Source: Eubacteriales bacterium
Lineage (GTDB): Bacteria; Bacillota; Clostridia; Oscillospirales; Acutalibacteraceae
Assembly (NCBI GenBank): GCA_029225565.1
Contig: JAQXWS010000070.1
Location: forward strand, 1-50,209
Length of the DNA stretch: 50,209 bases
Direction of reading: 5' to 3'
Shown: positions 14,784 to 28,325 of the stretch, piece after piece
Layout of the letters: the number at the start of each line of letters is the position of its first letter
How positions within the stretch are numbered: the first letter of the stretch is position 1
The notes under the pieces: model-generated
Told to the model about the DNA's origin: nothing
The model's input: only the letters and a program-made list of their open reading frames with translations
The model's database searches: none
Made by a program: the position numbers and the translations under genes

Positions 14784-16022
14784 TTATGACAAATGATGAA
14801 TAAACAGTCCGGACAACAGCTTCGGCTCAAACCATGTTGACTTCGGCGGCATAATTTGACCTGCGTCTGCAATGCTCATCAGGTCGTCCACCGTGGTGGG
14901 ATACATAGCGAATGCCAGCTGCATATCGGTTGTTGCCCTGCGCTCCAGCTCATCCAATCCGCGAATACCGCCGATAAAGTCGATACGCTGGTCATCCTTT
15001 GGGTTATGTATCCCCAGGATAGGCGCCAACAGATTATTCTGCAAAATACTGACATCCAGTCTTGCCACCGGGTCGGTGTTATCAAATGTGCCATCCTTGG
15101 CGGTCAGCAGGTACCATTTGCCGTCATAAAACATAGTAAAGGAGTGCTTGCTGCCGGGGCGCTCTCTTTGTGCCAGCTGTCGAACATCAAATTTTTCGCC
15201 CACCAGAGCCATATATTGCTCAATGGTATATCCGTTAAGGTCTTTGACAACTCTGTTGTAGTCCATAATCTCCAGGTCATCGTCTGCAAAAGCAACTGCC
15301 AGGAAGTAATTGAATTCCTCCTGACCTGTGTACCGAGGATTTGCCTGCCGGCGCATCTCGCCCACCTTAACGGCAGATGCACAACGATGATGACCGTCGG
15401 CAATATACAGAGATTCGACGCCCACAAAAGCCTTTTGTATAGCAACGCTGACGGACAAATCGTCAATCACCCATACCGTCTGCTTTACGCCGTCGCTGAC
15501 AAAGTCATATACCGGCTCATTGGTTTCAATCCAACCTGCCACAATGCCGTTAATAATGTCATTACTGCGGTAGGTCAAAAAGATGGGGCCCGTATTGGCA
15601 TCACAAATATTGACATGATTAATACGGTCCTGTTCCTTTTTTGCCAAGGTGAATTCATGCTTTTTTATTGTATTGTTCTTGTACTCATCAATTGACGCGC
15701 AGCCAACAATACCGGTTTGCGTTCTGCCGTTCATAACCTGACGGTAAATATACAAGCATGGGGACTCGTCCTGCACCAAGTATCCGTTCTTCTCCAATGC
15801 CAACAAATTTTCCCTCGCCTTTTGGTAAACCTGCGGGCTGTAAAGGTCGGTGCCGGGCGGCAGGTCAATCTCTGCCTTGTCCACATGCAAAAATGATAGT
15901 GGGTTGCCCGATGCCATTTCTCTTGCCTCATCGCTGTTGATAACATCATAAGGCAGCGCCGGTATCAGCGCCTGATTTTCTCTCGATGGCCTATATGCCA
16001 TAAACGGTCTGAATACTGCCAT
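14784..16022 (-). CDS. DUF1015 family protein
   Basis: A 412-residue cytoplasmic protein covering the whole DUF1015 family. Recognisable are the N-terminal F-R-P-x-M-A-Y-R-P, P-Y-D-V-I-N at 24-29, the H-E-F-T motif near 120 and the conserved A-D-G-H-H-R (about 208-213). The biochemical role of the family is not established; in many Firmicutes it lies near serine biosynthesis genes, which is not the case here. ATG follows AGAGGAG. A TATAAT lies about 30 bases upstream without a clear -35. The phage-like operon ends just upstream, and its terminator separates the two. Confidence 0.88.
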   Translation of the reverse strand: MAVFRPFMAYRPSRENQALIPALPYDVINSDEAREMASGNPLSFLHVDKAEIDLPPGTDLYSPQVYQKARENLLALEKNGYLVQDESPCLYIYRQVMNGRTQTGIVGCASIDEYKNNTIKKHEFTLAKKEQDRINHVNICDANTGPIFLTYRSNDIINGIVAGWIETNEPVYDFVSDGVKQTVWVIDDLSVSVAIQKAFVGVESLYIADGHHRCASAVKVGEMRRQANPRYTGQEEFNYFLAVAFADDDLEIMDYNRVVKDLNGYTIEQYMALVGEKFDVRQLAQRERPGSKHSFTMFYDGKWYLLTAKDGTFDNTDPVARLDVSILQNNLLAPILGIHNPKDDQRIDFIGGIRGLDELERRATTDMQLAFAMYPTTVDDLMSIADAGQIMPPKSTWFEPKLLSGLFIHHLS

Positions 16023-16082: not shown

Positions 16083-16112
16083 TAAAAAATAGGCATCGAG
16101 TTTTCGATGCCT
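16083..16112 (-). terminator. Terminator of the phage-like operon
   Basis: AGGCATCGA (16091-16099) and TCGATGCCT (16104-16112) with a four-base loop; on the minus strand TATTTTTT follows. It lies just after the fibre gene stop. Confidence 0.9.
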
Positions 16113-16118
16113 AATAAT

Positions 16119-16595
16119 TTACCTAAAGAGAATTACTACATAGCCAACGCCGTTGGTATTGTAGTTACGGTACTCGCTGACATTAACCGGTGTGGAGCTT
16201 TGGGTCACCTTCAGCGTTGTTCCGTTGAGTGTAAGTCCGGGATTGCCGCCCTGGGTGGATACAAAGCCAAAATAATTGTAGTGGGACTTGTTGGTAAAAT
16301 CCGATAGCCCCGGCGGATAATTGGCTGCGAACACAATGCCCCACCTGGGTGTAAAGCCGGACTCTATGTCGATGCTCCTGGTCGAAGAGCCGTTCCCGGT
16401 ATATACTTGGATGTGGTAAGGCTTGTTCCAGGCGGCCTTGTCCACACCGGTAACATGAACCCCGCTGTCGGCAATGTGTTGGGAAACAGCGCTGTCAATC
16501 AGCAAATTGTCCTGATTAAAGTCCTGCATTTTTGGACGATCGGTGCCCACCCATTGATTAAGCCCCAAATTGTCCGTCTTGTTTGTACTACTCAT
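16119..16595 (-). CDS. Short phage tail fibre / tail collar-like protein
   Basis: A 158-residue protein with the N-terminal pattern TDNLGLNQWVGTDRP and the D-F-N-x-D-N segment (1-35) seen in the baseplate-attachment part of prophage fibres. The rest is rich in G, N, S, T and Y, as in beta-rich receptor-binding tips. It is much shorter than typical fibres (400-1000 residues). Last gene of the operon; ATG follows GGAGG four bases after the previous stop. Function by position and N-terminal resemblance. Confidence 0.7.
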   Translation of the reverse strand: MSSTNKTDNLGLNQWVGTDRPKMQDFNQDNLLIDSAVSQHIADSGVHVTGVDKAAWNKPYHIQVYTGNGSSTRSIDIESGFTPRWGIVFAANYPPGLSDFTNKSHYNYFGFVSTQGGNPGLTLNGTTLKVTQSSTPVNVSEYRNYNTNGVGYVVILFR

Positions 16596-16598
16596 ATA

Positions 16599-17045
16599 TT
16601 AAACCTCCATTGTATCTATCATATTCCACAGCAGATTCAGATTGTCGTTGTAATGCCATGTGGAATTGCCGGCATCAATTATGTCCCAAGCTGCACCTGT
16701 GCCGAGACATTGCACCTCAATAAAAATATTGCCCCATTTCTGCCAAAAATCACTAAGCTTGTCCGGTGGAATATGGCGCAAAATCATTTTTCTTTTATAG
16801 CCGTAATAACTACCGCCCAGTTCTTGTATTGCCACTTCAAAGTTAGGAAAAGTAAAATCCTGCAGCGGAGCATAATCCACTCCGACGGGAGAAAAAATCC
16901 TATCCTCCGCCTCATTATTTTCCCTTGCGACAGCATCTATGCCGGCACAGTAGCCGTCAATTTCGGCTGCGGTGATTGTGCCCTCGTCCGTGCTGAGTCC
17001 CAGCATAGAAAACAGGCTAATCAGCCTATCCCTCACATTACTCAT
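16599..17045 (-). CDS. Baseplate-to-fibre protein, XkdU/gpI-like
   Basis: A 148-residue protein following gpJ, the place of PBSX XkdU (DUF2313) or P2 gpI, which links baseplate wedge and tail fibres. The start ATG at 17045 lies inside the last codons of the gpJ gene, with GAGGT upstream, so translation is coupled. It contains a conserved-looking L-L-W-N-M-I-D end and a V-G-V-D-Y-A-P segment. Assignment relies mainly on gene order and size. Confidence 0.6.
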   Translation of the reverse strand: MSNVRDRLISLFSMLGLSTDEGTITAAEIDGYCAGIDAVARENNEAEDRIFSPVGVDYAPLQDFTFPNFEVAIQELGGSYYGYKRKMILRHIPPDKLSDFWQKWGNIFIEVQCLGTGAAWDIIDAGNSTWHYNDNLNLLWNMIDTMEV

Positions 17046-18075
17046 CCATCAACACCTCGCAATTGTTGAGGGCAAGGAATCTGCCGTTGTTGCAAATCAC
17101 ATATCTGCCCACCTGTGTTGGACTGGTAACTCGGCAATCGCCCAGTTGGGACAGCCTGTACTCCAGGTAATCCAGGTCCAGATTTTCATTGATACGAAGG
17201 CCGCTGCACACCGAGCTGACCAACGCTTTGATTGCGTCGGCATCTGCATTTGTTCTAATTGCGTCCACCTTTATATCAAACTGCTGTGGATGTGTGCCCT
17301 TCAGCGTATATCCTGTGTCAATCATAGCAAATACCTCCAAGCAATTATCGACCTCGTCGCGCATCTCGTATGTCAGCTTGCCCTCTGTAGTTCGCACCCA
17401 CACATACACATCGTAATCGCTAAGAATATTAACCCGACAATCAATGATAAATGGAAGCTTCATAACCAAGGCTTCAACATATTCTATACTGATACAATTA
17501 CCCAGCCTGAAGCTGTCCATAATCCTGCCTCGCAAACGCTCGTCGCTTTCGTTATCGCTTCCTCCGGCAAAGCTGTCATCATTTGTCACAGCCTCAACGC
17601 CCATGGGAGCGTTGACCATACAGGTAACAGCGCCACGGGGACAATTATACTGTGAGCCTATCTCCAAGGCTGTTGCAGATACCTCCGCTGATTTTGTGCC
17701 GGCCGGTATAGTACAGGCAGCATCTGTTATGTACTGAATGAATGGCTTGTCCTCCAAGGAACAAATAATGCCCATGGGAATACTAATGTCATTAACGGCA
17801 GGCTGGGACACGGAGAACCTTAGCACTCCGTGAGCTTTTGTACCTGTGTGCCTTTGTATATCTCTCATAGCTGCGTGCCGGTCAAGATAGTCCCCGGTAG
17901 CCGTCTGAGGAAAGGCCTGCTTTAGCAAAAAATCGTTTTTGCACCCCAGAGAAAATAACTCGCTGGCAACAGCCTGAAAACGGGCGTCAATATCGCCCAT
18001 ATTGTCCACATTCCTGCCACAGCTGTCAAAAAATGCTTTTTTCATAGCCGTCAGTATCTCATCGTAGGTCTTCAT
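17038..18075 (-). CDS. Baseplate J family protein
   Basis: A 345-residue wedge protein of the gpJ/XkdT family (T4 gp6 equivalent). Typical elements are the N-terminal D-x-R-F-x-A-V-A-S-E segment near 28-38, the D-Y-L-D-R-H-A motif near 63-69 and the central G-G-S-D-N-E-S-D-E-R-L-R-x-R (about 172-185), which marks this family. It is full length. It overlaps gp25 upstream by 17 bases and XkdU downstream by 8. In contractile particles this protein joins gp25 to form the ring around the hub. Confidence 0.88.
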   Translation of the reverse strand: MKTYDEILTAMKKAFFDSCGRNVDNMGDIDARFQAVASELFSLGCKNDFLLKQAFPQTATGDYLDRHAAMRDIQRHTGTKAHGVLRFSVSQPAVNDISIPMGIICSLEDKPFIQYITDAACTIPAGTKSAEVSATALEIGSQYNCPRGAVTCMVNAPMGVEAVTNDDSFAGGSDNESDERLRGRIMDSFRLGNCISIEYVEALVMKLPFIIDCRVNILSDYDVYVWVRTTEGKLTYEMRDEVDNCLEVFAMIDTGYTLKGTHPQQFDIKVDAIRTNADADAIKALVSSVCSGLRINENLDLDYLEYRLSQLGDCRVTSPTQVGRYVICNNGRFLALNNCEVLMDE

Positions 18076-18394
18076 ATTTTACGCTCACCTGCCTTTCTTC
18101 ATTATTAATCACCAGATAATAGGTGATTGTGTCTTCGTTTTGCACAGCATTCTTTACATACACTCCGTCAAAATCGTACAACGCCTGACGGGCGCATGCC
18201 AGCGCGTACTGCGCCAAAGGACGCATATCCCCCTGTAATGCCGTGCCGTAATCCTTATTAGGATAGAATTTGCCGCGCTTAATACCCAAGTGCATGGTCA
18301 CATCCTGAAGTATCCGGGGTATGTGCTCCACCGTTTGCAGTCCGCTGTCTTGGTCGGCAGTAGCATAGTCGCCGTTTATAATCAAATCTGTCAC
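18059..18394 (-). CDS. gp25/gpW-like baseplate wedge protein (XkdS-like)
   Basis: A 111-residue protein with the size and position of T4 gp25. The segment I-K-R-G-x-F-Y-P-N-K-D-Y-G-T (about 38-51) resembles the core of this family, which in contractile systems contacts sheath and gpJ. Starts by ATGA overlap with the spike gene. All key baseplate partners lie next to it. Confidence 0.78.
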   Translation of the reverse strand: MTDLIINGDYATADQDSGLQTVEHIPRILQDVTMHLGIKRGKFYPNKDYGTALQGDMRPLAQYALACARQALYDFDGVYVKNAVQNEDTITYYLVINNEERQVSVKYEDLR

Positions 18395-18744
18395 TGCTTA
18401 ATCACTCCATCCTTATCTATAATCAAGGAATTGATGACAACCGAGCCATCATTTCGCAAAGTAATGGTAGCACCGCCCTGGGAACGCAGCTGTATCTCGC
18501 CGCTGGCCAAGGCGGTAAATTTGGCTAAAGTTCCCATTATAGCCTGACCTCGCCCGGCAGGGATAATGAGCACTTCCTCCCCCACGGGAGGCAGGGCGGT
18601 GTAGCCGTAGGGCATATACATATCTGTATTGCGTGAGGTTACGGTTGACCCTGCCTCAATATTGTCGGCAGACGAGATAGTAACGCTGCCGTTTTGGGCT
18701 TTTTCCTCCTGTGGGGTTGTATTAATATTTTTACTCAGCCACAT
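18391..18744 (-). CDS. Baseplate spike protein, gpV/gp45-like
   Basis: A 117-residue protein lying between hub and gp25. The middle G-E-E-V-L-I-I-P (about 56-63) fits the OB-fold of baseplate spikes; after it come regular short beta repeats (G-E-I-Q-L-R-S-Q-G-G-A-T-I-T-L-R-N-D-G-S), as in the needle part. ATG 18744 follows GGAGGAG; a longer in-frame start has no ribosome binding site and overlaps the hub gene deeply. It should form the central puncturing tip. Confidence 0.75.
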   Translation of the reverse strand: MWLSKNINTTPQEEKAQNGSVTISSADNIEAGSTVTSRNTDMYMPYGYTALPPVGEEVLIIPAGRGQAIMGTLAKFTALASGEIQLRSQGGATITLRNDGSVVINSLIIDKDGVIKQ

Positions 18745-19687
18745 AATCAATCTCCTCCATATCAATGGTCCGTCGCAATGTCACCACAGTGGATACGCCG
18801 CTTTTGTCCATAGAATATCTGATTGAGGATACCTCCAGCGCACCGGTCCTGCCAAAGTAACCCAACTGAAGCTCCACAGTATCCCACAGATTACCCTGCC
18901 ACACTTCAGCCAGCCGCAACTGATATGTCATATAGTCATCACCGGCCTGAGTTAGCTGATTGTGGAGAATATAGTTTTTTTGCCAATCAGGAAAAGCGCC
19001 GAGATTTTGCTTTTTTGTACAGCGAATCCTCCTGGAGCAAAAAAAGTTGCTTCTGTAGTGATTGATATAATCCCTGCTGTCGCCGTTCTTGTAGTCAATA
19101 GCGCTGATTACATCACCGCGGTTGATAACACGGCGAGCGCTGACTATACTGTGGGGACTGATTGCGGATTTTTTCCCTTGACGGGCAGGTACTATGCAAT
19201 TATCAGCTGTTACAAAAATCCCGTTGCCGGTCATACCGTACACAAAATCATTTATAGCAGCCCAACAGCTCTTGCCGGCAGTCACAAGATAATTGCCGTC
19301 ACAGGCAATATTGGGTAACCGGTTGGTAAATCCGTATTCCTTTGCGTTGAGAACATACAGCGCCTGGGTACAGGGATGACTGTAGTTAAAAGGCTTGGCC
19401 TGATTATCCACCAGCAAGCAGGCTGACGACCTGGCATAAACAAAACAGGTAATCCCGTCGTCGTTTACTGTCTCGCGCTGGGTATCTACATAACCGTTGA
19501 ATATACATTTGGAATCAGTGAATACCCTGATGCTGTACAGCTCCGCCAACGCACGGGAATGGGTAAAATACAGTCGCAGTCCGTGACATGGTGCGTCCAC
19601 ATCCATTGACAACTCATAGGACAGTATGTTATCAACATCGACTGTCCCATCATCAATATCAGTAAGCTCAAACCTTAATTCAGCCAT
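18731..19687 (-). CDS. Baseplate hub, late control D / XkdQ-like
   Basis: A 318-residue protein with the layout of gpD/XkdQ (T4 gp27 equivalent), which forms the trimeric hub holding the spike. The conserved centre includes a G-K-S-x-W-A-A-I-N-D-F segment (about 147-158) and an N-G-I-F-V-T-x-D stretch, typical of the family. It overlaps the LysM gene by 13 bases and the spike gene by 14. ATG follows GGAGG. Confidence 0.8.
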   Translation of the reverse strand: MAELRFELTDIDDGTVDVDNILSYELSMDVDAPCHGLRLYFTHSRALAELYSIRVFTDSKCIFNGYVDTQRETVNDDGITCFVYARSSACLLVDNQAKPFNYSHPCTQALYVLNAKEYGFTNRLPNIACDGNYLVTAGKSCWAAINDFVYGMTGNGIFVTADNCIVPARQGKKSAISPHSIVSARRVINRGDVISAIDYKNGDSRDYINHYRSNFFCSRRIRCTKKQNLGAFPDWQKNYILHNQLTQAGDDYMTYQLRLAEVWQGNLWDTVELQLGYFGRTGALEVSSIRYSMDKSGVSTVVTLRRTIDMEEIDYVAE

Positions 19688-20190
19688 ACCTTGTCCCCCT
19701 CCTTTACACTAAACATATCCCGGTAATCATTGCTAAGGAACAATGTGTCCGTATCCACATGGCATCTGTTGGCAATATCATACAGGTTTTCTCCGCTGCG
19801 AGCATAGGTAAAGCCAAGATTGTAGCTGCTCTGCTTGTCGTTACTGTCCTGAACAAACTTAAAGGAGTAGTCAACCCGGTTTTTGGCTGCATCGTAAGCA
19901 ATATCCAGGTCAGTAAAATACGCCCTGAATACCATTGCGTCCGGCACAAAAAGGTGTGCGCTGCCTTTGTGGTCGAAGATACGCATAAGCTCCGTGGCTT
20001 TTTCCAATGCGTCGTTGCCCAAAAATACTCCGTTGCCGCTGACAACTGTGGGTTGGATACTGATTTCCTGAGCCTTTGTACTGCCAAAGGGTACCACTTG
20101 TTTGCTTATCTTCTTGCTCTTGTTAATTTGAATACTGGAGGGATTGGCGTCCAGCACCAGTCCCTTGTAGCATAGCTTGATATATTGCAT
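19675..20190 (-). CDS. LysM-containing baseplate/tail assembly protein, XkdP-like
   Basis: A 171-residue protein. The N-terminal part (about 1-115) is beta-rich; the C-terminal part (about 120-171) is a LysM unit: Y-D-I-A-N-R-C-x-V-D ... L-F-L-S-N and a V-K-E-G-D-K-V-W end. PBSX XkdP and phage gp53-like proteins have the same composition and lie between tape measure and hub. Here no tape measure precedes it. ATG follows AAGGAGG. Confidence 0.75.
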   Translation of the reverse strand: MQYIKLCYKGLVLDANPSSIQINKSKKISKQVVPFGSTKAQEISIQPTVVSGNGVFLGNDALEKATELMRIFDHKGSAHLFVPDAMVFRAYFTDLDIAYDAAKNRVDYSFKFVQDSNDKQSSYNLGFTYARSGENLYDIANRCHVDTDTLFLSNDYRDMFSVKEGDKVWLN

Positions 20191-20205
20191 AGTTTACCTC
20201 CTTAA

Positions 20206-20286
20206 TTATTTGTCGTATCGTCTGGAGTCCAGCATTATGTAGTCGCTGACATCCTGGGATACGGTGTAACTGTCGTTATCGTTCAT
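20206..20286 (-). CDS. 26-residue ORF in place of the tail tube/sheath/tape-measure genes
   Basis: A 27-codon frame (M-N-D-N-D-S-Y-T ... S-R-R-Y-D-K, stop TAA). The ATG lies within the last codons of the preceding connector gene (11-base overlap), with GGAG nine bases upstream, and the stop is 15 bases before the LysM gene start. It is acidic at the front and basic at the end. It is either a true micro-protein or the relic of a larger tail gene. No similarity recognised. It is the only content between the connector block and the baseplate block. Confidence 0.5.
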   Translation of the reverse strand: MNDNDSYTVSQDVSDYIMLDSRRYDK

Positions 20287-20689
20287 CACTGTCATCTCCA
20301 AACTCAAGTCGGTCGTAGTATGTGAGCGCGCACTTGGCGGTATAGCATCGCAACAGGTCATCACAATCAATCTGGGTCAGGCGTATTCCCTGCACGCTAT
20401 TGTCAACACAGTTGCGCAAAAACCTTGACACAATATCGGTAGCCACCGGTGAGCCCATCTTATGCGGCACAAAAAAATGCGCGTCAATATCGTACCTGCC
20501 ATACATCACATTGCCGCCCAGCTCCACATTGTCACAATTAACGCCGCCCGGTGATAGTGTAATGACAATGCGGTCCAGAGCCGTAGGCTTGATAGCATAG
20601 GGATAAGCCTTGATAACAGAGGCGTCCTGCAGCTGAGGACATTGGGACAGCTTGTGCTGTAGGTCATCAATATGTCTATCCAAATACAT
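20276..20689 (-). CDS. Head-tail connector / tail completion-like protein
   Basis: A 137-residue protein that ends the connector block. By size and order it fits a tail terminator or completion protein (PBSX XkdJ or HK97 gp10-like). The start MYLDRH at 20689 has GAGGG eight bases upstream; the ATG five codons earlier has none. Overlaps the preceding gene by 14 bases. Function by position only. Confidence 0.55.
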   Translation of the reverse strand: MYLDRHIDDLQHKLSQCPQLQDASVIKAYPYAIKPTALDRIVITLSPGGVNCDNVELGGNVMYGRYDIDAHFFVPHKMGSPVATDIVSRFLRNCVDNSVQGIRLTQIDCDDLLRCYTAKCALTYYDRLEFGDDSDER

Positions 20690-21041
20690 CGCTGTCACCC
20701 TCATATATCAATTTCAGCACACCGGAGTAGAATTGCACCGTATCCCCAACCAGTACTCTGTCACTGCGCACAAAGTAGAATTTTTTGCCGTCGGACTCAA
20801 ATATATCTGCCTGGGTAAGTTGGGTTATATCACAGCCGGCAGGGCCGTAATATAAATAGTAATCGGTATATGCGCCGCCCAATCTAGTGGTGGTCGATTC
20901 AAATTTGGACTTCAGTCGGCGCCATACCTGCTGAATAACAGCCCCTACCGTCTCCACGGTGCCGTCCGCCTTTGTTATGGTACAGGTTCTGCCGCATTTT
21001 GCCAGCTGTCCGGCAATAATGTCGCTCATATCAATCTTCAT
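20676..21041 (-). CDS. Putative head-tail joining (stopper-like) protein
   Basis: A 121-residue beta-rich protein between the adaptor and the completion protein, in the place of XkdH-like stopper proteins. The C-terminal half (Y-F-V-R-S-D-R ... V-Q-F-Y-S-G) fits a small beta barrel. ATG 21041 follows AGGAGG; the longer frame overlaps the previous gene and has no binding site. Assignment from gene order. Confidence 0.5.
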   Translation of the reverse strand: MKIDMSDIIAGQLAKCGRTCTITKADGTVETVGAVIQQVWRRLKSKFESTTTRLGGAYTDYYLYYGPAGCDITQLTQADIFESDGKKFYFVRSDRVLVGDTVQFYSGVLKLIYEGDSDVFG

Positions 21042-21051
21042 ATCGCGCCTC

Positions 21052-21405
21052 CTATACATCCATAAATGCAAATTGCTCGTCCCTGACCAAATCCCCTACA
21101 TCTGCCAGAGCAGAAAGGTATATCTCCTTGGCAAGAGAGTGATTGTCGTTTTCGGCAAGCATCACATCCCCTGCCTTAAATGTGGATACGGTGGCACCCG
21201 ATGACTTGATTAGTGCAATCTCGTAATTGGTCTTGGCTGCTATATAGTATCCGTAGCGTGACTCATCACCGGCGGAGCAAAGCTCGACCCCCTGAATTAA
21301 TAGGTCATAGTTCTTGTCCAGAATCGGAGCATACTGCTCCAGCTCCTGCCGGGACATAGCGCTCATGGCTAACAGTATATCCAGCACCTTATCCTTTGTA
21401 ATCAC
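21052..21405 (-). CDS. Putative head-tail adaptor (gp6-like)
   Basis: A 117-residue mainly helical protein (L-L-A-M-S-x-M-S-R-Q-E-L near the start) directly after the capsid gene, the usual place of the gp6/gp15-type adaptor that sits under the portal. It starts with GTG at 21405, preceded by AAAGGATG. Name by position; sequence alone gives no firm match. Confidence 0.5.
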   Translation of the reverse strand: MITKDKVLDILLAMSAMSRQELEQYAPILDKNYDLLIQGVELCSAGDESRYGYYIAAKTNYEIALIKSSGATVSTFKAGDVMLAENDNHSLAKEIYLSALADVGDLVRDEQFAFMDV

Positions 21406-21425
21406 ACTATCATCCTTTCGCCAAA

Positions 21426-22415
21426 TCAGTTCATTACCTTGATAGCATCGGTAAAGATTGGAGAAAATCCTACTGTAGAAGTGACGGAGGCTCTCTCCAG
21501 CTGACGGTCAATAAGGCGGTCAAAGTCGGTAACAATATCGCCGAACTGTACCATCTCAACCGCATATCTCTTGTCCAATGCCATAATTGATTGACCGGAT
21601 ACCATCGGTACGCACAGCACCTGCGAGCCCATAGGCGTAATCGGCGCTCCTGTTCCGTGGAATGTCTGACCGGCTCTTGCGTCCTTAAATTCGGAAAGGT
21701 TGAGAAGATTGGCCATAGTCTGTGAATCAACCAGCATAGTGGACATATTGTACGGATTGAATGAGTTCCAAAGCTTAACAAGGTCGGTGTACTGAACGCC
21801 CTTTTCGGCATCCTCAAAATTCATAATCTCAACATCGTCCGTCAGCATTGACCTTACGCAATCCCTGAGCTGACATGCGGAAATGAATTCGCCGATTTGC
21901 TTTAGCGCTACGGTAAAGATGTCCAGCTTTTGTGATTTGATTGCCTCGTATGAGGCTGTGAGCATTCTGCCTCGCTTGTACAGAGGGGTCAGGGTTTCCT
22001 TTGTTTTAATTGTGGTTTCGGGAATGAATGCGCCCTCAATAATTACATCGTCGGCATTTGGGCTTTCGTTGCTGACACTCTCGATAGCACGATAATCCAG
22101 AGAATCCACCTTTGTTACGCTGGCAACAATCTGTTCCACAATATTTGACTCATTAATACCCTGGCGTACCGCACGGGAAATATACTCCGGAAAAAGCGCT
22201 GCAGAATCAGTGGTAGCAAAAAACTTTGATACCGGGTCAGAATTTGCACCCGACACCTTGATGTCGAATCTCTTCAGCTGGCGCTGATATGCATCCAGAC
22301 CCTCAAGCTCTGTACCCTTGTAGTTTTCGGATGGGTCAATATCCTCAAGAGCCGCATTAAAGCCCTTTGATGAGGTGTAAAGACCCTTGTCCAATCTTAT
22401 GTTATCGTATGACAT
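21426..22415 (-). CDS. Major capsid protein, HK97-like
   Basis: A 329-residue protein following protease and decoration genes. The N-terminal about 70 residues are helical and charged. From about 75 the sequence (A-L-F-P-E-Y-I-S-R-A-V-R-Q-G) resembles the capsid proteins of PBSX-type prophages (XkdG group). A conserved loop with G-T-G-A-P-I-T-P-M-G lies near 258-267. Length and operon position are those of an HK97-fold shell protein. ATG follows GAGGAGG. Confidence 0.78.
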   Translation of the reverse strand: MSYDNIRLDKGLYTSSKGFNAALEDIDPSENYKGTELEGLDAYQRQLKRFDIKVSGANSDPVSKFFATTDSAALFPEYISRAVRQGINESNIVEQIVASVTKVDSLDYRAIESVSNESPNADDVIIEGAFIPETTIKTKETLTPLYKRGRMLTASYEAIKSQKLDIFTVALKQIGEFISACQLRDCVRSMLTDDVEIMNFEDAEKGVQYTDLVKLWNSFNPYNMSTMLVDSQTMANLLNLSEFKDARAGQTFHGTGAPITPMGSQVLCVPMVSGQSIMALDKRYAVEMVQFGDIVTDFDRLIDRQLERASVTSTVGFSPIFTDAIKVMN

Positions 22416-22439
22416 ATTAAAATTCCTCCTCGTGAATAA

Positions 22440-22793
22440 TTAAAGAATAAAACCGACGGTCTTATTGGCCGTATCTACTGTCAGCACCTTGCTGAACACA
22501 CCCTTTTGAGCAGAGGTTGCCGCAATCTGTACAGCGCCCTTGCCGTCGCCGATAAATTCAACAAATCCGCATTTAGGCGCTGTGCTCACATAACGAGCCT
22601 CAACATAGCCCTCGGTTTGAACGCCGATATATTCGCCTCTTACGGTAGTACAAATGCCAATAATGTTTTGGCTGTTTGTTGCCAAAACAACTGAGCCGTC
22701 CTGGGCAATGGTTACTGCATCGCCGGGCTTAATATCGGCACTTGATTTTGGCATAGTGATAACCTGTGCATCGTATCCCTTGTATGAAATCAT
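22440..22793 (-). CDS. Head decoration protein-like
   Basis: A 117-residue small beta-rich protein between protease and capsid genes, with hydrophobic strands and a V-T-I-A-Q-D-G-S-V core. Position and size fit lambda gpD-like decoration proteins that stabilise the expanded shell. ATG follows AGGAGG. Moderate confidence since few motifs exist in this family. Confidence 0.6.
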   Translation of the reverse strand: MISYKGYDAQVITMPKSSADIKPGDAVTIAQDGSVVLATNSQNIIGICTTVRGEYIGVQTEGYVEARYVSTAPKCGFVEFIGDGKGAVQIAATSAQKGVFSKVLTVDTANKTVGFIL

Positions 22794-22804
22794 AATTATT
22801 CCTC

Positions 22805-23764
22805 CTAAATTTTAAACTCTGAATAGTTGTTGTTTTCTGTCTTTTCCTGTGGCAGCAGCTGTGGAGACATTGATGCTTTTGCTCCGGCTTTTTTCATACC
22901 GTCACGGAATCCCAATAGCTCGTCAGTTGTCATAACTGCTGTTATTGAGCCAAACAGCTTTTTGTCCATGGACGGAAAGGCGTTGCCAAACAAAGCAACT
23001 ACCTCCTTTGCCAACTGCTTTTTGTACTCCTCTCCCAGGAGCGCATCCTGACGAAGGCCGTCAATATACGATGACAATTCCATAGCCTGGGATTTGGTAA
23101 TAGTCAGCTCGCTGTCACATAAGTCCATTGACTTGATAATCTCGTCCATATCTACATCCTCCTTAATACCGAACGACTTTGTTACCCCTGCCTCTCGCTG
23201 GGCAGGTACAGCAACAAAACTGAACTCGTACGCATCTGTGGGCTGGGACAAAATTGTGTGGCACACCTTGTTGCCGTACTTTTTGCCCTTAATATGGCTG
23301 CAGTGAGAGGTTCTGTGGTCCTCGCCGCAAACGGAGCATACAGCCCCTGCCATCGAACAAGACACGGATACCTCCTTTTTTATACCGGCATCAATATCGT
23401 CAATTAGTCCGCGATTGGCATCATTGTTCAGCATATACACTCTTGCCATAAGGCAGTAAAGCGGCTGTCCGTCAGCGGTAAGCCTGCCCTTCTGCTTTTC
23501 CACATAGGTATCGAATATTCTCGCTCTCTGGTCCGCGCTGCGCATGGAGTGGTCGCTTATGCCTGTCTTGCCCACAAACATAGGTGCCAGCTGCTCCAAC
23601 GCCTCTACGGAAAAACGCTCGTAGTCACGGTCAATATCATTGTTGCACAGGCTGACGCTGAAGATATATACCTCCTCCGGTGCCAGCTCTCTGCGAGCAT
23701 AAGCGCTTATCAGCTGCATATCCTCCGGTGTTGCAACACTCTTTTGGATTAGACTATTGCTCAT
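22805..23764 (-). CDS. Prohead protease / scaffold-like protein with Cys-His cluster
   Basis: A 319-residue protein after the portal gene. The N-terminal half (about 30-210) looks like a prohead protease domain: a G-K-T-G-I-S-D-H-S segment with histidine, then V-S-V-S-C-S carrying a possible nucleophile serine. A cluster C-S-V-C-G-E-D-H ... S-H-C-S-H may bind zinc. The C-terminal half (about 210-319) is helical and charged and could be the scaffold that is cut away. Begins by ATGA overlap with the portal gene. Serves capsid maturation if the name is right. Confidence 0.68.
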   Translation of the reverse strand: MSNSLIQKSVATPEDMQLISAYARRELAPEEVYIFSVSLCNNDIDRDYERFSVEALEQLAPMFVGKTGISDHSMRSADQRARIFDTYVEKQKGRLTADGQPLYCLMARVYMLNNDANRGLIDDIDAGIKKEVSVSCSMAGAVCSVCGEDHRTSHCSHIKGKKYGNKVCHTILSQPTDAYEFSFVAVPAQREAGVTKSFGIKEDVDMDEIIKSMDLCDSELTITKSQAMELSSYIDGLRQDALLGEEYKKQLAKEVVALFGNAFPSMDKKLFGSITAVMTTDELLGFRDGMKKAGAKASMSPQLLPQEKTENNNYSEFKI

Positions 23765-24903
23765 TCTTCTGCCTCCTTAATAATTTTGTCTGCCTCGGCA
23801 TTGTAAAGTCTTGCTTGAGCCTGCTCTGTAGCATCCTGCAAAGTAATCTCGTCCCACAGCACATCCACATTGCCGTAATATCCTACGGTATCCAGGTACG
23901 CCGTGGCTATCCTGCAAAGCACAGGAGTGATTACCCTCCTGTAAGCCCACAATTCTGTGGTGAGTATGTCCGCCTGCTGCTGGCTCATCCTCTCTGTAGA
24001 AGACCAGCTGAGTCCGAACATATATGGCATAAGTCCGGTCTTGGCAATGATTTGCTCCAGCATTTGGCGTACAGGAATTTCGCTGTCCAAAACCTGATTG
24101 TCGGCGCCGATAACGCTGACCTTTACATCACCCACTGCCACAAAGTCCTTTACGGCGTCCTTGCTGCTCATGGCGTCCTTCCATGCCGATGCCATTTGGT
24201 TGGCTCTCTCCTTTGCAAACGCCTTGTCCGTTGCGTCGTTCTGGGGCTTGTAGGTCACGGCATACCGCAGATTGCCCACACGCTCCCAATTGGTGCCTAT
24301 GGTGTTATATATAGTCAGCAAAATATCGCTGACAAAGGGCAATCCCCTAAGCAAGCTGGTGCCCAGTATTTTGCCCGGCTCCGGATTGATTACCGAAAAC
24401 AGTAATTTGCTCTTGTCCTGTATTTGAACAGGGGTACCTGTGCCGGTGTTAAAAAATTCCAGCTCCAGCCCAACGCCGCGCTTGACATCAATATTATCTA
24501 AGCCGGCGTTATACAGCCCATAAAAGCAGTCGCCGTCCACCAGCATCTCGCCGATAGCTGTGCCGTAGGTCAGCAACTGTGCCATATAGTTATCCACAAA
24601 GGTCTGCAGTCCCTGCTGATTGCCGCCGACGGTAACCGAATCAAAAAAACTGTTTATACGGTCATCCAGAACATCGTCGCCGGTAACAAATCTGAATCCG
24701 CCCATAAGGCGAACAATCTTGTTGATGGCGCTGTCGATAATAGGCACGCCCTCACGCAAAGAAGCATATACCCGATTGTTTACATCAGCCAACGGCGTGT
24801 ACCCGTTCATAAGATAAAAGGGATGAGCATTTAGGGTACAGGTCTGCACGCTGGAGGTGTTTTTTGGAGCGTCGCTCTTTTTATCTCGTCTTAATATGCC
24901 CAA
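23761..24903 (-). CDS. Phage portal protein
   Basis: A 380-residue protein between large terminase and protease, the usual place of the portal. It has the family pattern: a helical N-terminal wing with D-S-A-I-N-K-I-V-R-L-M-G-G-F, a P-G-K-I-L-G-T-S-L-L-R-G-L segment (about 186-198) and the long helix after S-S-T-E-R-M-S-Q-Q-Q. Twelve copies would form the DNA gate. The start is TTG at 24903, with AAGGAAGTG upstream and no nearer ATG. It is shorter than many portals (450-520) but looks intact. Confidence 0.82.
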   Translation of the reverse strand: MGILRRDKKSDAPKNTSSVQTCTLNAHPFYLMNGYTPLADVNNRVYASLREGVPIIDSAINKIVRLMGGFRFVTGDDVLDDRINSFFDSVTVGGNQQGLQTFVDNYMAQLLTYGTAIGEMLVDGDCFYGLYNAGLDNIDVKRGVGLELEFFNTGTGTPVQIQDKSKLLFSVINPEPGKILGTSLLRGLPFVSDILLTIYNTIGTNWERVGNLRYAVTYKPQNDATDKAFAKERANQMASAWKDAMSSKDAVKDFVAVGDVKVSVIGADNQVLDSEIPVRQMLEQIIAKTGLMPYMFGLSWSSTERMSQQQADILTTELWAYRRVITPVLCRIATAYLDTVGYYGNVDVLWDEITLQDATEQAQARLYNAEADKIIKEAEE

Positions 24904-24907
24904 GGCT

Positions 24908-26161
24908 TCACTTCCTTTCTACTGCAATAGAAAACGAACAGTCATCTCTGTCCCCGTCAATAACAGTTTGGACAAAGTATCTGATGTCGTCCATTGCGTG
25001 GTCATTTTCCTTTTTTGGTGCATCTCGCTTTATGTCGTTGTCCCAGCGATAAACAGAGAATTCCCTGATGGTATCGGTACAGCATGGGGCAATATAGAAC
25101 TCCTCGTCCTTGAGAGCCTGGCACACTCGGTTGATGCCCTTGAGCACATCGTTGTCCGCCTTGATAATCCTGTATTCCCCATGCCTGCGTACCGTCTCAA
25201 TAAAAGAGGCAGCCGACGGGTCAATTATCAGCGCGGTAACAGCTCTGTCCCCTGCCAAGGCCTTTAGCTGAGCATAGTATTCCTCGTCCGTCAATTGCAC
25301 ACCCCTGTCACGGGAGGAATGATAGTACTCATCTATGCGATACCACTTGTCACCCGATTTGCCCCACAGTCCCAACGAAAACGGATTGACCGTGCCATAA
25401 TCACAGGACAGATAATATTGGGTATAGTCCTCGGCGCTGCGGATATGTCGCTCGCCGTCAAACATAGGGTACACAAGTCCGTCGGCAGCCACCCACTTGC
25501 CCTCGATAAATCGCCGATAGAATGCACCTGAATATAGATTTTTGTATCGGGCTTTTATTTCTGCCGATAGGGATGGATTGTCGTTCATGGTAAAATGGAG
25601 ATAGAGCATACCCTTTTCGTCAGCCTTTTTTATCCACTCATTATAAAACCAATGAAATGGGTGCTCCGGATTGCAGTTGAACCAAAATCGTGAGCCGTCC
25701 AGAGAGCATCTTGCCAGCGCCTGCTCCACAAAGGAACGCGGCATCAGCGCAACCTCGTCAAATAGGACACCTCCCAGGGTCATACCCTGAATAAGCGATG
25801 CAGAGCTCTCGTCCCTGCCGCCAAACAGATAAAATCTGTTTTTTACATTGCCCTTTTTGATTTCCAGATAATTTCGACTTATCCTCTCGCTGACAGAAAA
25901 GCCAAGACCGGTCAATATTGGTACCATGGGTGTAACCACATTCCGTCTCAGAGAGGTGATTGTCTTGCCACACAGCGCAAAGGATGTATCACCGAAATTG
26001 TAAAACGCCCATGATACAAAGGACAGGGACATACACAGCGTCTTGCCGCTGCGCACGGCACCGTCGCATATCAGACCGTTCCTGTCGGCATAGGGACTGG
26101 TGCGACACCACCAGGTCAGGGCTGTCATCTGCTTTGGCGAAAATGCAGAAAACTCAATCAT
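24908..26161 (-). CDS. Phage terminase large subunit (PBSX-type)
   Basis: A 417-residue packaging motor. ATPase: Walker A G-A-V-R-S-G-K-T at 34-41 and Walker B V-L-F-D-E at 132-136. RNase H-like nuclease: D-Y-G near 260, I-I-D-P-S further on and D-H-A-M-D-D-I-R near the end supply the acidic metal site. All motifs are intact. The start ATG at 26161 overlaps the small subunit stop by 8 bases, with GAGTG before it; the open frame extends further upstream without a start signal. It belongs to the PBSX/SPP1 terminase group, so headful packaging is likely. Confidence 0.92.
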   Translation of the reverse strand: MIEFSAFSPKQMTALTWWCRTSPYADRNGLICDGAVRSGKTLCMSLSFVSWAFYNFGDTSFALCGKTITSLRRNVVTPMVPILTGLGFSVSERISRNYLEIKKGNVKNRFYLFGGRDESSASLIQGMTLGGVLFDEVALMPRSFVEQALARCSLDGSRFWFNCNPEHPFHWFYNEWIKKADEKGMLYLHFTMNDNPSLSAEIKARYKNLYSGAFYRRFIEGKWVAADGLVYPMFDGERHIRSAEDYTQYYLSCDYGTVNPFSLGLWGKSGDKWYRIDEYYHSSRDRGVQLTDEEYYAQLKALAGDRAVTALIIDPSAASFIETVRRHGEYRIIKADNDVLKGINRVCQALKDEEFYIAPCCTDTIREFSVYRWDNDIKRDAPKKENDHAMDDIRYFVQTVIDGDRDDCSFSIAVERK

Positions 26162-26477
26162 CGCTATCACTCTGCGCCATATTTTGCGCTCCCTTTTCCA
26201 GGGCGGCAAAAAAGCTAAGCCCGCTGTCATTGCTGCCGGACCGATACCGAGCCAATCCCTCGCAGGCCTTGATACGGTCAAAAAACTTGATTTCCATACC
26301 ACCGCCCCGAGGTCGCTTTATCTCGCTGACATTAATCAAATTCAGCTTGCCTAAGCTTGCGATAATCTGCTCGTCAGTCATAAACAGCAGACTGACTGCA
26401 TCGCTGACATCCCCAAATGCCAATGCCGTCAAGCCCTCCTTAATTTGGTCGTCAATACTGCGCTTTCTCCTTGCCAT
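26154..26477 (-). CDS. Terminase small subunit-like protein
   Basis: A 107-residue basic-to-acidic protein. The N-terminus (MARRKRS) and a helical part are followed by S-E-I-K-R-P-R-G-G-G-M-E-I-K-F-F-D-R (about 57-74), a pattern I recall from small proteins preceding PBSX-type large terminases. It should recognise DNA for packaging. ATG 26477 follows GGGAG at ten bases; an upstream in-frame TTG is too close to that site. First gene of the operon, 20 bases after the leader hairpin. Confidence 0.72.
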   Translation of the reverse strand: MARRKRSIDDQIKEGLTALAFGDVSDAVSLLFMTDEQIIASLGKLNLINVSEIKRPRGGGMEIKFFDRIKACEGLARYRSGSNDSGLSFFAALEKGAQNMAQSDSDD

Positions 26478-26498
26478 AAAACTCAATCTCCCTTCAGC

Positions 26499-26550
26499 AA
26501 AAAAGCCTAATCACAGAAGTCCTTACCAAGAAGTCCTTCCATAATTAGGC
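26499..26550 (-). terminator. Terminator-like leader hairpin before the phage-like operon
   Basis: Minus strand: GCCTAAT (26550-26544), 32 bases, ATTAGGC (26511-26505), then six T (26504-26499). The loop holds two direct copies of AAGGACTTCT (26538-26529 and 26524-26515) 14 bases apart. The hairpin lies between the predicted promoter and the first gene, so it would act as an attenuator. Confidence 0.65.
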
Positions 26551-26561
26551 CGAAAAACGGG

Positions 26562-26567
26562 ATTATA
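26562..26567 (-). promoter_or_regulatory. Predicted -10 of the phage-like operon
   Basis: TATAAT on the minus strand. The -35 at 17 bases would be TCCAAA (26590-26585), a poor match that coincides with one arm of the nested dyad. This suggests a promoter needing an activator. Confidence 0.45.
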
Positions 26568-26584
26568 TTCACTTTTAATGTATA

Positions 26585-26653
26585 TTTGGACCTAAAAACC
26601 GGCAAATAAATTTATTTTTGCAAAAATATGCACAAAAGCCGAATAAGTCCAAA
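26585..26653. promoter_or_regulatory. Nested dyad upstream of the phage-like operon
   Basis: Outer arms TTTGGACCTAAAAACCGGC (26585-26603) and GCCGAATAAGTCCAAA (26638-26653) are imperfect inverted copies: TTTGGAC and GCC/GGC match, with a length difference inside. At the centre is the perfect palindrome ATTTTTGCAAAAAT (26614-26627). The arrangement suits a regulator site or a long RNA/DNA cruciform. Confidence 0.55.
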
Positions 26654-26711: not shown

Positions 26712-28325
26712 TTATTTACATTGACAAATACTGCGCTTGGTAGCCGGGATTGATGACGGGGTTACAGAAAATTCATCCAGTCCCCACTCCACCAGCATGG
26801 GCAACAGTTCAGGGTCGGCAGCAGCCTCGCCGCACATACCCACCGAAATACCGGCTGCCTTGCCGTTTTTAATAGTCATCTCAATAGCACGCAGAACCGA
26901 CGGCTGCATAGCGTCGTACAGATGCGCCACAGCAGTGTTGCCGCGGTCCACAGCCATTGTGTAGCCTGTAAGGTCGTTTGTACCGATGGAGAAAAAATCT
27001 ACCTCCTTTGCCAGCAGGTCGGATATAAGTGCGGCAGACGGAGTTTCTATCATAACGCCCAGCTGTACATCGGCATATCTCATACCGGCATTTGCCAGCT
27101 CCGTCTTGCACTCATCCACAACGGCTGCTGCAGACCTGACCTCCTCCACAGTGGTTACCAGCGGGAACATAATCTTTATATTCCCGAGGACTGCCGCACG
27201 CAATATGGCTCTGAGCTGTGTCTTGAATAACTCCGGATGGTCAAGGCAGTATCTGATACCCCTATGACCCAAAAACGGATTGTCCTCCTTGGCAATATCC
27301 AAATAGTCTATCGCCTTATCTCCGCCAATGTCCAATGTACGGATAATAATTTCTTTTCCGTCCATTGCTCTTGCTACAGTAGAATACGCCTCATATTGCT
27401 CGTCCTCGGTGGGCAGACTGTCCCTGCCCATAAACAAAAACTCTGTACGAAACAGGCCGATACCCTCGCCGCCGTTCTGTATAACATTTTGGGCGTCCTC
27501 CGGATTGCCAATGTTACCGTACACCTTCTTTTTTACTCCCGACCGGGTAACAGCCTCTCTGTTAAAATACTCTGTCAGGCTCTCCTTTTCTTCAATAAAC
27601 ACTCTCTGCTTGCCGGCATACAGGGACAACTCGTCAACGGAGGGCTCCACAATTACCTTGCCCTTAAATCCGTCCACTATCAGCTCACAGCCGTCAATCA
27701 ACTTGTCTACTGCATTAGGAACCGACAGCACAGCAGGGATTCCCATTGCTCTGGCAAGTATTGCGCTATGACTGGTTACGCCGCCAATCTCCGTGACGAT
27801 ACCCACAACATTGTCCTTATTGATTTGGGAGGTCATAGATGGGGTAAAGTCCTTGGCAACAAGTATTGAGCCCATTGGCACGGCAGATATATCCACACTC
27901 TGCACTCCCAACAGCAACCGCAGCAGACTGTCGCGAATATCCCTTACATCCGAGGCACGCTGACGGGTCAGCTGGTCGTCCGCGCCGGAGAAAACATCAA
28001 TGAACATATTGCAAACAGCGTCCACACCGGCCTCTGCCACAGCACCGCCGTCAATATTGTCCTCCATCTGTGACAGCATGAACGGGTCCTGCAGCATCAC
28101 AATATGGCCCTGCAAAATCTCGGCCTCATGGTCACCGGCATTCTTCTTTAATTCCTGTGTCAAGGCATCGGTTTCGGCAATATATTCGTCAACCGCCTTG
28201 CGCAGTCTGGCCTTTTCCTTTTCGGCTGTAGAATACTTTACTGCAGAATAATCCAGATTTATGTCCCTGATTATCACAGCATTACCAATGCCGTAACCCT
28301 GTGATGCGCCAATTCCCTTTAGCAT
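26712..28325 (-). CDS. ptsI: PTS enzyme I (phosphoenolpyruvate-protein phosphotransferase)
   Basis: A 537-residue cytoplasmic enzyme that takes phosphate from PEP and hands it to HPr. The phosphorylated histidine is H186 in G-G-V-T-S-H-S-A-I-L-A-R. The C-terminal PEP-binding barrel has the E-T-P-S-A-A motif, S-I-G-T-N-D-L-T and the conserved cysteine in G-M-C-G-E. Length is slightly short of the usual 570. ATG follows GAGGT. Last gene of the fru operon, placed so that the general PTS proteins rise with fructose uptake. Confidence 0.96.
   Translation of the reverse strand: MLKGIGASQGYGIGNAVIIRDINLDYSAVKYSTAEKEKARLRKAVDEYIAETDALTQELKKNAGDHEAEILQGHIVMLQDPFMLSQMEDNIDGGAVAEAGVDAVCNMFIDVFSGADDQLTRQRASDVRDIRDSLLRLLLGVQSVDISAVPMGSILVAKDFTPSMTSQINKDNVVGIVTEIGGVTSHSAILARAMGIPAVLSVPNAVDKLIDGCELIVDGFKGKVIVEPSVDELSLYAGKQRVFIEEKESLTEYFNREAVTRSGVKKKVYGNIGNPEDAQNVIQNGGEGIGLFRTEFLFMGRDSLPTEDEQYEAYSTVARAMDGKEIIIRTLDIGGDKAIDYLDIAKEDNPFLGHRGIRYCLDHPELFKTQLRAILRAAVLGNIKIMFPLVTTVEEVRSAAAVVDECKTELANAGMRYADVQLGVMIETPSAALISDLLAKEVDFFSIGTNDLTGYTMAVDRGNTAVAHLYDAMQPSVLRAIEMTIKNGKAAGISVGMCGEAAADPELLPMLVEWGLDEFSVTPSSIPATKRSICQCK

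Follow-up and report, generated by a model that had tools for sequence, protein, structure and literature searches.

A probably domesticated phage-derived operon of Acutalibacteraceae with a reduced tail that may work like a gene transfer agent

Introduction

What is left of a phage tail when the head and the baseplate are kept and the parts between them are lost? This question is raised by contig JAQXWS010000070.1 of an Eubacteriales bacterium of the family Acutalibacteraceae (GenBank assembly GCA_029225565.1), whose positions 1 to 50,209 form the stretch analysed here, hereafter the window. The window contains a single minus-strand operon of 10.4 kb, from about 26486 to 16119, with genes for terminase, portal, capsid, neck, baseplate and fibre proteins. 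A preliminary description, made from the letters alone, favoured a domesticated particle resembling a gene transfer agent (GTA). Our comparison with related genomes supports this preference: the element occupies a single site in each genome of most of its genus, its trees are congruent with rpoB, the ratio of nonsynonymous to synonymous substitution rates (dN/dS) is low in the closest pair, its composition is host-like and its arrangement is constant save for contig cuts. We read the operon as a domesticated, vertically inherited, phage-derived element working like a GTA, with a probability of roughly 0.64.

Conservation and inheritance

The comparison covered 80 genomes of the genus (51 of high quality), 300 of the family (230 of high quality) and 394 of the order (315 of high quality), together with the genome of the window itself (1.76 Mb in 85 contigs, 91% complete). 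Genomes are numbered with G and loci with L; 40 genus loci were fetched, making 41 with the window. Some contigs were fetched twice (L055/L146, L064/L171, L060/L186, L045/L143, L053/L151, and several of L031–L051 with L072–L111).

The portal gene was found in 71 of the 80 genus genomes and in 47 of the 51 high-quality ones, at a single place in each; in G009 and G056 pieces of it lie near contig ends. A search of relatives for the same gene order, proposed in the preliminary description, found it constant across the 40 fetched loci, except where contig ends interrupt L073 and L094. Chance is excluded as the source of the arrangement because the operon is conserved across the genus. The J gene is shortened in L080 and L085. 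A DUF1015-type gene follows on the 3' side in 29 of the 40 loci and coaX in two more (L093, L096); these, like the enzyme I, ribosomal-protein, RNF, YerC and twitching-motility genes, were named by eye.

Of 30 genomes asked, 25 gave an rpoB sequence. The rpoB tree shares 17 of 22 splits with the tree of the head genes and 17 of 22 with that of the baseplate genes, against at most 2 with shuffled labels (200 shuffles). The neighbouring DUF1015 gene, compared in 17 genomes, has 10 of 14 splits in common with rpoB. Mantel correlations were 0.82 and 0.79, with none of 999 permutations as high. In a 105-locus tree of the large terminase (TerL), portal and capsid proteins, the 41 tips of the genus form a single clade with support 0.975, and the families stand mostly apart, with some deep nodes weak. 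Judged by these comparisons of sequence, the element is vertically inherited.

The dN/dS comparison that had been suggested gave 0.05–0.16 in the closest pair, L105/L110, for the 12 operon genes printed, and medians of 0.08–0.69 over all usable pairs. TerL shows RSGK and DE without variation in 103 of 103 rows, and its three nuclease aspartates in 105 of 105. The GC content is 48.1% within the operon and 47.4% outside it.

A putative relic of the tape measure

About 85 bases separate con3, the gene of a predicted tail terminator, from the gene of the LysM baseplate protein, and had been taken as empty. They code for 26 residues, MNDNDSYTVSQDVSDYIMLDSRRYDK, with a GGAG sequence ahead of an ATG at 20286 and an end at 20206; an earlier start would give up to about 31 residues. 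An open reading frame (ORF) with the same motif occurs in all 40 genus loci that contain LysM, namely the window and 39 of the 40 fetched.

The origin of this microprotein is suggested by relatives with longer tails. In L059, from a goat-rumen relative, the place between con3 and LysM holds a sheath gene (phrog_279, 3.8e-42), a tube-type protein, a gene in the chaperone position and, before LysM, a 134-residue protein that terminates in ..SMEEISRFFERDARRYG. In family f14, where 11 of 13 loci have sheath and tube calls, the protein directly before LysM (159–229 residues) ends in ..RD[SA]RR[YF]D.. in 10 of the 11 loci with LysM, L186 being the exception.

Applied to the 25,896 ORFs of 78 other loci, a profile derived solely from genus sequences gave 19 distinct matches at E≤10. 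Seventeen of these are ORFs that stop immediately ahead of LysM, and 7 of the 17 lie in loci with a sheath; L064 and L171 among the 17 are one contig, and the two misses are one ORF each in L057 and L196. A stricter motif pattern, which does not fit the genus motif (the genus was counted separately), is present in 13 of 17 sheath-bearing loci, in proteins with a median of 173 residues (95–229). Two of the other four show the motif by eye (L153) or by profile (L150). Among tube-only loci it was found in 11 of 22, with a median protein length of 57 residues (25–170). The regular expressions were designed after inspection of the motif sequences.

From the motif common to the proteins in the tape-measure position, we interpret the microprotein as a tape-measure C-terminus. 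The earlier statement that the operon has no tape measure is not quite right, because the microprotein would be its relic. At 26 residues this would be, to our knowledge, the smallest tape measure.

Loss of tail parts among relatives

The operon of the window is one state in a series that extends across the order. Sheath and tube are both present in L059, L150, L153, L160, L179, 11 of the 13 f14 loci and L198, and the tube only in, for example, L145, L147, L161 and L164. The window genus, L144, L146, L171 and L181 have neither and keep the baseplate. Tubes were assigned by profile and some may be missed, since in L148 and L204 the interval from con3 to LysM is about 500 bases long yet received no tube call. 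Other relatives are without a baseplate: Baseplate_J was found in 0 of 12 whole genomes searched, with a model whose sensitivity to the J protein of this family was checked on the window only. Their operons end in con3 fused to a fibre-like domain in 7 of 12 cases and in plain con3 in 5 of 12. The loci that end in this C-terminal fusion of terminator and fibre-like domain are L142, L143, L149, L155, L156, L163 and L167.

Dollo scoring on the tree gave 10 losses of the sheath, 13 of the tube and 12 of the baseplate (100 loci scored; L073, L094, L149, L152 and L193 omitted). Of the baseplate losses, as many as three depend on L189 and L201, which are cut by contig ends, and on L186, in which LysM is present; the order of events is inferred from this tree, rooted at its midpoint. 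The loss of the tail is old, because full-tail relatives occur in other genera and families and none among the 40 genus loci. Hence the idea of a recent deletion, for which a full tail at this place in close relatives had been named as the sign, finds no support in any of the 40. A swap of the baseplate module was also considered and is unneeded, as the tree of LysM and hub places the genus by relatives that are near it in the head tree too. In a further family, f26 (L188, L194, L196, L199, L200), most loci have only head genes, con1 and LysM- or hub-like genes by profiles, and in L188 and L196 other genes come soon after.

Gene content and predicted folds

Every frame of the window operon is open, and the genes nearly touch or overlap, as had been described. 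The operon lies between a phosphotransferase system enzyme I gene (26712-28325) and a DUF1015-type gene (14784-16022). Its features, all on the minus strand, are as follows, with E-values after the family names.

26566..26591, minus: conserved motif of the control region, GTCCAAATATACATTAAAAGTGAATA; a TATAAT at 26562-26567 overlaps it
26505..26550, minus: attenuator-like leader hairpin (-23.2 kcal/mol) directly ahead of the operon, followed by a T-run at 26499-26504
26154..26477, minus: small terminase-like protein, by position; Terminase_2 0.016, below cut-off
24908..26161, minus: large terminase; phrog_2 1.3e-47
23761..24903, minus: portal; phrog_30703 1.5e-116
22805..23764, minus: phrog_16951 protein (1.2e-93), a family of unknown function; by position probably the prohead protease/scaffold
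22440..22793, minus: head decoration (cement)-like protein; phrog_4588 virion structural protein 7.6e-16
21426..22415, minus: major capsid protein; phrog_3922 7.3e-73, PF25209 6.8e-10
21052..21405, minus: con1, head-tail adaptor-like; own sequence without family match
20676..21041, minus: con2, neck protein in the stopper position, by position only; no family match
20276..20689, minus: con3, predicted tail terminator, identified by fold only
20206..20286, minus: 26-residue protein, putative relic of the tape-measure C-terminus, motif YIMLDSRRYD, by conservation of the motif ORF
19675..20190, minus: LysM baseplate protein with tube-like N-terminal domain by model fold; PF01476 0.013, below cut-off; LysM repeat by profile
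18731..19687, minus: baseplate hub; phrog_177 4.4e-6
18391..18744, minus: spike-like protein; PF06890 0.0028, below cut-off; phrog_25991 2e-11, a family of unknown function
18059..18394, minus: gp25-like baseplate protein, by position; weak match to phrog_975 baseplate protein 0.15
17038..18075, minus: baseplate J (wedge); PF04865 1.1e-24, phrog_6 2.2e-46
16599..17045, minus: XkdU-like protein, by position; no family match
16119..16595, minus: fibre; phrog_33092 (unknown function) 1.2e-7 over residues 1-42
16090..16113, minus: terminator-like hairpin directly after the fibre gene, closing the operon

Family matches are weak or absent for the small terminase, con1, con2, con3, gp25-like and XkdU-like proteins. 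The small terminase-like gene may start earlier, at a TTG at 26486; 40 of the 41 genus loci contain it, and a contig end cuts the remaining one. Relatives of con1 in L059 and L203 give weak matches to head-tail adaptor families (E 0.007 and 0.015). For the XkdU-like gene, relatives have a similar-sized slot between J and fibre; an iterated XkdU profile drifted onto J, which makes its presence counts unreliable. No match to the decoration-like gene was found in part of the genus loci.

Profile scans of the 16 operon ORFs found no sheath, tube, integrase, repressor or lysis gene, and the genome of the window (1.76 Mb, 91% complete) has no match to Phage_sheath_1 at E≤1 or to the phrog_279 sheath. 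The list of missing genes in the preliminary description holds to this extent, with the tape measure as the part that does not. The absence of tube and lysis genes was checked at the locus and at the loci of relatives; no lysis gene adjoining the operon was recognised by eye in the downstream ORFs of the 40 genus loci. Rfam and tRNA scans of the window gave no matches. Tailocins and contractile injection systems are a poor fit, as capsid and terminase are present, sheath and tube are absent from the locus and the sheath from the genome. A prophage fits no better, as the operon ORFs include no integration, immunity or lysis gene and the element has one place per genome with recurring neighbours.

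The AlphaFold model of con3 has a predicted local distance difference test score (pLDDT) of 89. In Foldseek its first match is a Salmonella protein of unknown function, followed by the pyocin R2 collar, the Mu terminator, lambda gpU and T5 p142, at template modelling scores of about 0.4-0.65; a PDB sequence search with con3 gave 0 matches. By its predicted fold, con3 is a tail terminator. The LysM protein was modelled with pLDDT 86 and a predicted template modelling score of 0.64. Its best Foldseek matches are the baseplates of phiCD508 and of contractile injection systems, followed by tube proteins and a chain titled as the neck of an empty GTA particle. The PDB sequence search for the tube had a best E of 0.18, with tail tube gp13 at 0.4. 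The model suggests that LysM provides one tube-like ring able to sit right under the terminator.

Control region and replication genes

Many genus loci have a common control region upstream of the small terminase gene, comprising a motif GTCC(A/G)ATTATGCATAAAnnGTGAATAAAA, often present twice, and a leader hairpin. In the window the control region lies at 26499-26600. Its motif is the sole match of the genus pattern in its own genome (2 mismatches), and a pattern search found no second match there. A first pattern gave 29 matches in 19 of 80 genomes against 1 for a reversed control, and a second matched 19 of 80 genomes against 0 for the reversed control in 80 genomes. A terminator-like hairpin occurs in 16 of 39 genus leaders, compared with 8 of 195 after base shuffling; the idea that every leader carries one was rejected on this count, by the criterion used.

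In seven sister genomes the control region also stands ahead of orphan phage replication genes, whose neighbours vary between species (by eye) and most of which have a leader hairpin. These encode a P4-type primase (G013, G015, G043), DUF6291 (G013, G015, G016, G020, G043) or a DnaD-like helicase loader (G006, G047), and lie at L263:3933-5366, L265:5724-7292, L269:1-1313, L264:2577-3116 and L266:11446-12144, with further loci at L267:475-1215, L288, L296, L262:7996-8592 and L270:5034-5597. Neither of two candidates is a universal partner of the operon. The P4-type primase is found in 10 of 80 genomes, with the control region in the three named; no control region was found for the copies in G031, G025 and G046, and those of the other four genomes fell outside the check. 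DUF6291 occupies 11 places in 9 of 80 genomes, with the control region at 5 of 11; in the fetched stretches of the other 6 (G014, G012, G015:C13, G046, G071, G013:C26) it was not found. Overall, the control region was found at a minority of the genus copies of these gene families. Such a distribution would fit a regulon, or cassettes that hitch-hike, in some species; the GTA-like reading does not need it.

Two further observations concern the control region. In L324 (G066:C80) it occurs without a hairpin upstream of a YerC/TrpR-like gene, either as a regulatory region standing alone or as the trace that a lost cassette left behind. The leader of L074 (G015) and L264 (G013) share a similar repeat of ~100 bases after the leader hairpin, at different loci in two species.

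Distribution beyond the genus

A portal profile matched 176 of 300 family genomes (151 of 230 high-quality ones), in 80 of 135 genera, and 70 of 394 order genomes (68 of 315 high-quality ones). There was one match per genome, except for two in G247. Isolates with the element include Eubacterium coprostanoligenes, Clostridium methylpentosum, an Anaeromassilibacillus and Candidatus Soleaferrea massiliensis; no Faecalibacterium record was among the 36 loci of one contig scan. In E. coprostanoligenes ATCC 51222 (L037) the genes follow the same order and the J frame is shorter. In a phage collection six records matched, comprising five unannotated human faecal 'Bacteriophage sp.' scaffolds and a Microcystis phage (27% identity). 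One of the faecal records, L202 (GenBank MT835508), has a head-only element among ribosomal-protein, RNF-type and transporter genes. By appearance MT835508 is bacterial chromosome, perhaps packaged DNA or contamination.

Proposed mechanism and alternatives

On the GTA-like reading, induced cells would make a small icosahedral head that the terminase fills with DNA, presumably host DNA, and that the adaptor, stopper and terminator rings would close. With no tube, the tube-like LysM ring and the hub would dock directly under the terminator and bear the spike, the J wedge and the fibre. The direct mounting of the baseplate on the head, already proposed in the preliminary description, keeps this conditional form. 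In phage 80alpha the hub protein Tal is bound by the C-termini of the tape measure, as described in the part of PMC11661146 used here; the 26-residue protein may likewise be a leftover C-terminal anchor in the hub, plugging it until release. DNA would then be delivered into recipients, with lysis by genes elsewhere.

A wider and more tentative reading, to which we would give somewhat less than even odds, is the gene-by-gene dismantling of a phage tail within one inherited particle lineage. The contractile tail would have become a bare tube and then no tube; the tape measure would have shrunk from ~160-230 to 26 residues and become a hub plug; in other lineages the fibre domain would have been fused straight to the neck; the particle of the window would deliver DNA via a one-ring tail; and in sister species the same switch would also start replication genes, either amplifying DNA for packaging or serving hitch-hikers that replicate with the particles.

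Several observations weigh against the GTA-like reading. The element is known from its genes, and particle, cargo and transfer are unseen for the genus. The absence of a tube comes from scans of loci. Neither a lysis nor a regulator gene is known from the genome of the window, where no genome-wide search was made. Among the 80 genus genomes, 9 have no portal match, including 4 high-quality ones, and the portal is broken in G004 (two frames) and G024 (one TGA). The large terminase gene of L091 (G041:C2, a three-contig genome) is broken into three frames and the phrog_16951 gene of L084 (G047) into two. Median dN/dS is high in short genes (con3 0.69, gp25 0.54, cement and con1 0.46), perhaps from saturation. 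As to the tape measure, L179 and L198 keep a sheath and lack the motif, and most single E-values of the motif are weak (0.003-9).

The alternative that survives best, which we nevertheless regard as unlikely, is a domesticated particle directed at neighbours, by killing or another action, as a PBSX-like or podovirus-shaped bacteriocin in which packaged DNA is incidental. LysM, spike and fibre are kept, and PBSX does not inject the host DNA that it packages, a parallel drawn for the GTA of Faecalibacterium, FpGTA, in the parts of PMC12946183 compared. Yet a particle without a sheath could not puncture by contraction, and some relatives with head and terminase have no Baseplate_J genome-wide, so that selection there would follow the packaging and not the tip.

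A working or satellite-type virus, integrated and still mobile with its missing functions drawn from a helper or from other genes, is distinctly less probable. The orphan replication genes under the same control region and the portal relatives in five faecal phage records speak for it. However, the element holds a single place in each genome among recurring neighbours, its trees match rpoB, its ORFs include no integrase or repressor, and MT835508 resembles bacterial chromosome.

About as improbable, or slightly more so, is the split phage named as an alternative in the preliminary description, in which tube (and sheath) genes elsewhere would complete a normal tail. FpGTA itself is divided between distant operons (PMC12946183), and the tube has been sought at the loci and not genome-wide. 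For the sheath the idea finds no support: the own genome has none, and near-full-length sheath genes occur in only 2 of the 80 genus genomes, one of which, G019, has no portal; a tape measure of about 26 residues also speaks against a full tail. That the operon is a decaying prophage remnant without function is scarcely credible, for although tail parts were lost repeatedly and genes are broken in G041, G047, G004 and G024, the 41 genus loci show few breaks beside two shortened J genes, contig cuts aside, and the low dN/dS of the closest pair, invariant catalytic residues and persistence across families speak against it.

If the GTA-like reading is true, such a particle is inherited across much of an order of gut and rumen bacteria, a point of relevance to models of gene flow in the gut; GTAs are known from few lineages. 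The relatives would form a natural series for asking which parts of a tail are needed for DNA delivery, and the common control region offers a handle on the inducing signal.

Comparison with known systems

The gene order of PBSX-type contractile phages is head, neck, LysM, hub, spike, gp25-like, J, XkdU-like and fibre, and that of the window operon is the same. The difference lies between neck and LysM, where those phages have sheath, tube, chaperone and tape measure and the window a putative relic of ~26 residues. By Foldseek titles, the LysM baseplate fold is alike in phiCD508 and diffocin, and the tube and collar folds of diffocin are also alike; both phiCD508 and diffocin possess sheath and tube.

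RcGTA, which has a tube and a siphophage-type tip, and BaGTA differ from the element in hosts and lineages. All are endogenized, vertically inherited clusters with capsid and terminase, as far as the parts of PMC9662315 compared describe them. BaGTA is associated with run-off replication, according to the part of PMC2697382 compared, which in concept resembles the co-regulated replication genes of the sister species.

In the same part of PMC9662315, GTAs are defined as particles of tailed-phage-derived proteins that contain mostly random host DNA, are endogenized, often over several loci, cannot package their whole genome, are inherited vertically with co-diversification of the host and deliver DNA to other cells. 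Three of these six features are found here, and we therefore speak of an element that would work like a GTA, not a proven one (PMC9662315). The proteins derive from tailed phages (terminase, portal, capsid, baseplate J, hub), by genes alone. The element is endogenized among housekeeping genes, with co-regulated second loci in seven sister genomes and none in its own. It is inherited vertically, by the splits shared with rpoB in 25 genomes and the separation of families and genus in the tree.

A literature search recognised no other account of this element, and FpGTA appears in one paper. Faecalibacterium and the host of the window belong to one order. FpGTA, described by Borodovich et al., is the closest known system by description, the likeness being one of account and not of sequence; what follows draws on the parts of PMC12946183 compared. 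It is named in this 2026 paper as the first GTA of the human gut microbiome, and GTA-like packaging is described in several genera. Its particles measure ~40 nm, have no identifiable tail and hold ~9 kb of DNA. Both systems are conserved in gut bacteria with genes for small and large terminase, portal, capsid, baseplate and fibre, and the main text of the paper never uses the word sheath. FpGTA consists of two operons (I and II) about 125 kb apart, the second with holin and endolysin, whereas here there is one; between portal and capsid (RCH50851.1 and RCH50849.1) it has one gene by accession numbers, compared with two here. The tail-loss series, the tape-measure relic and this genus do not feature in those parts of PMC12946183. 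By likeness of description, the window element is probably of the FpGTA kind.

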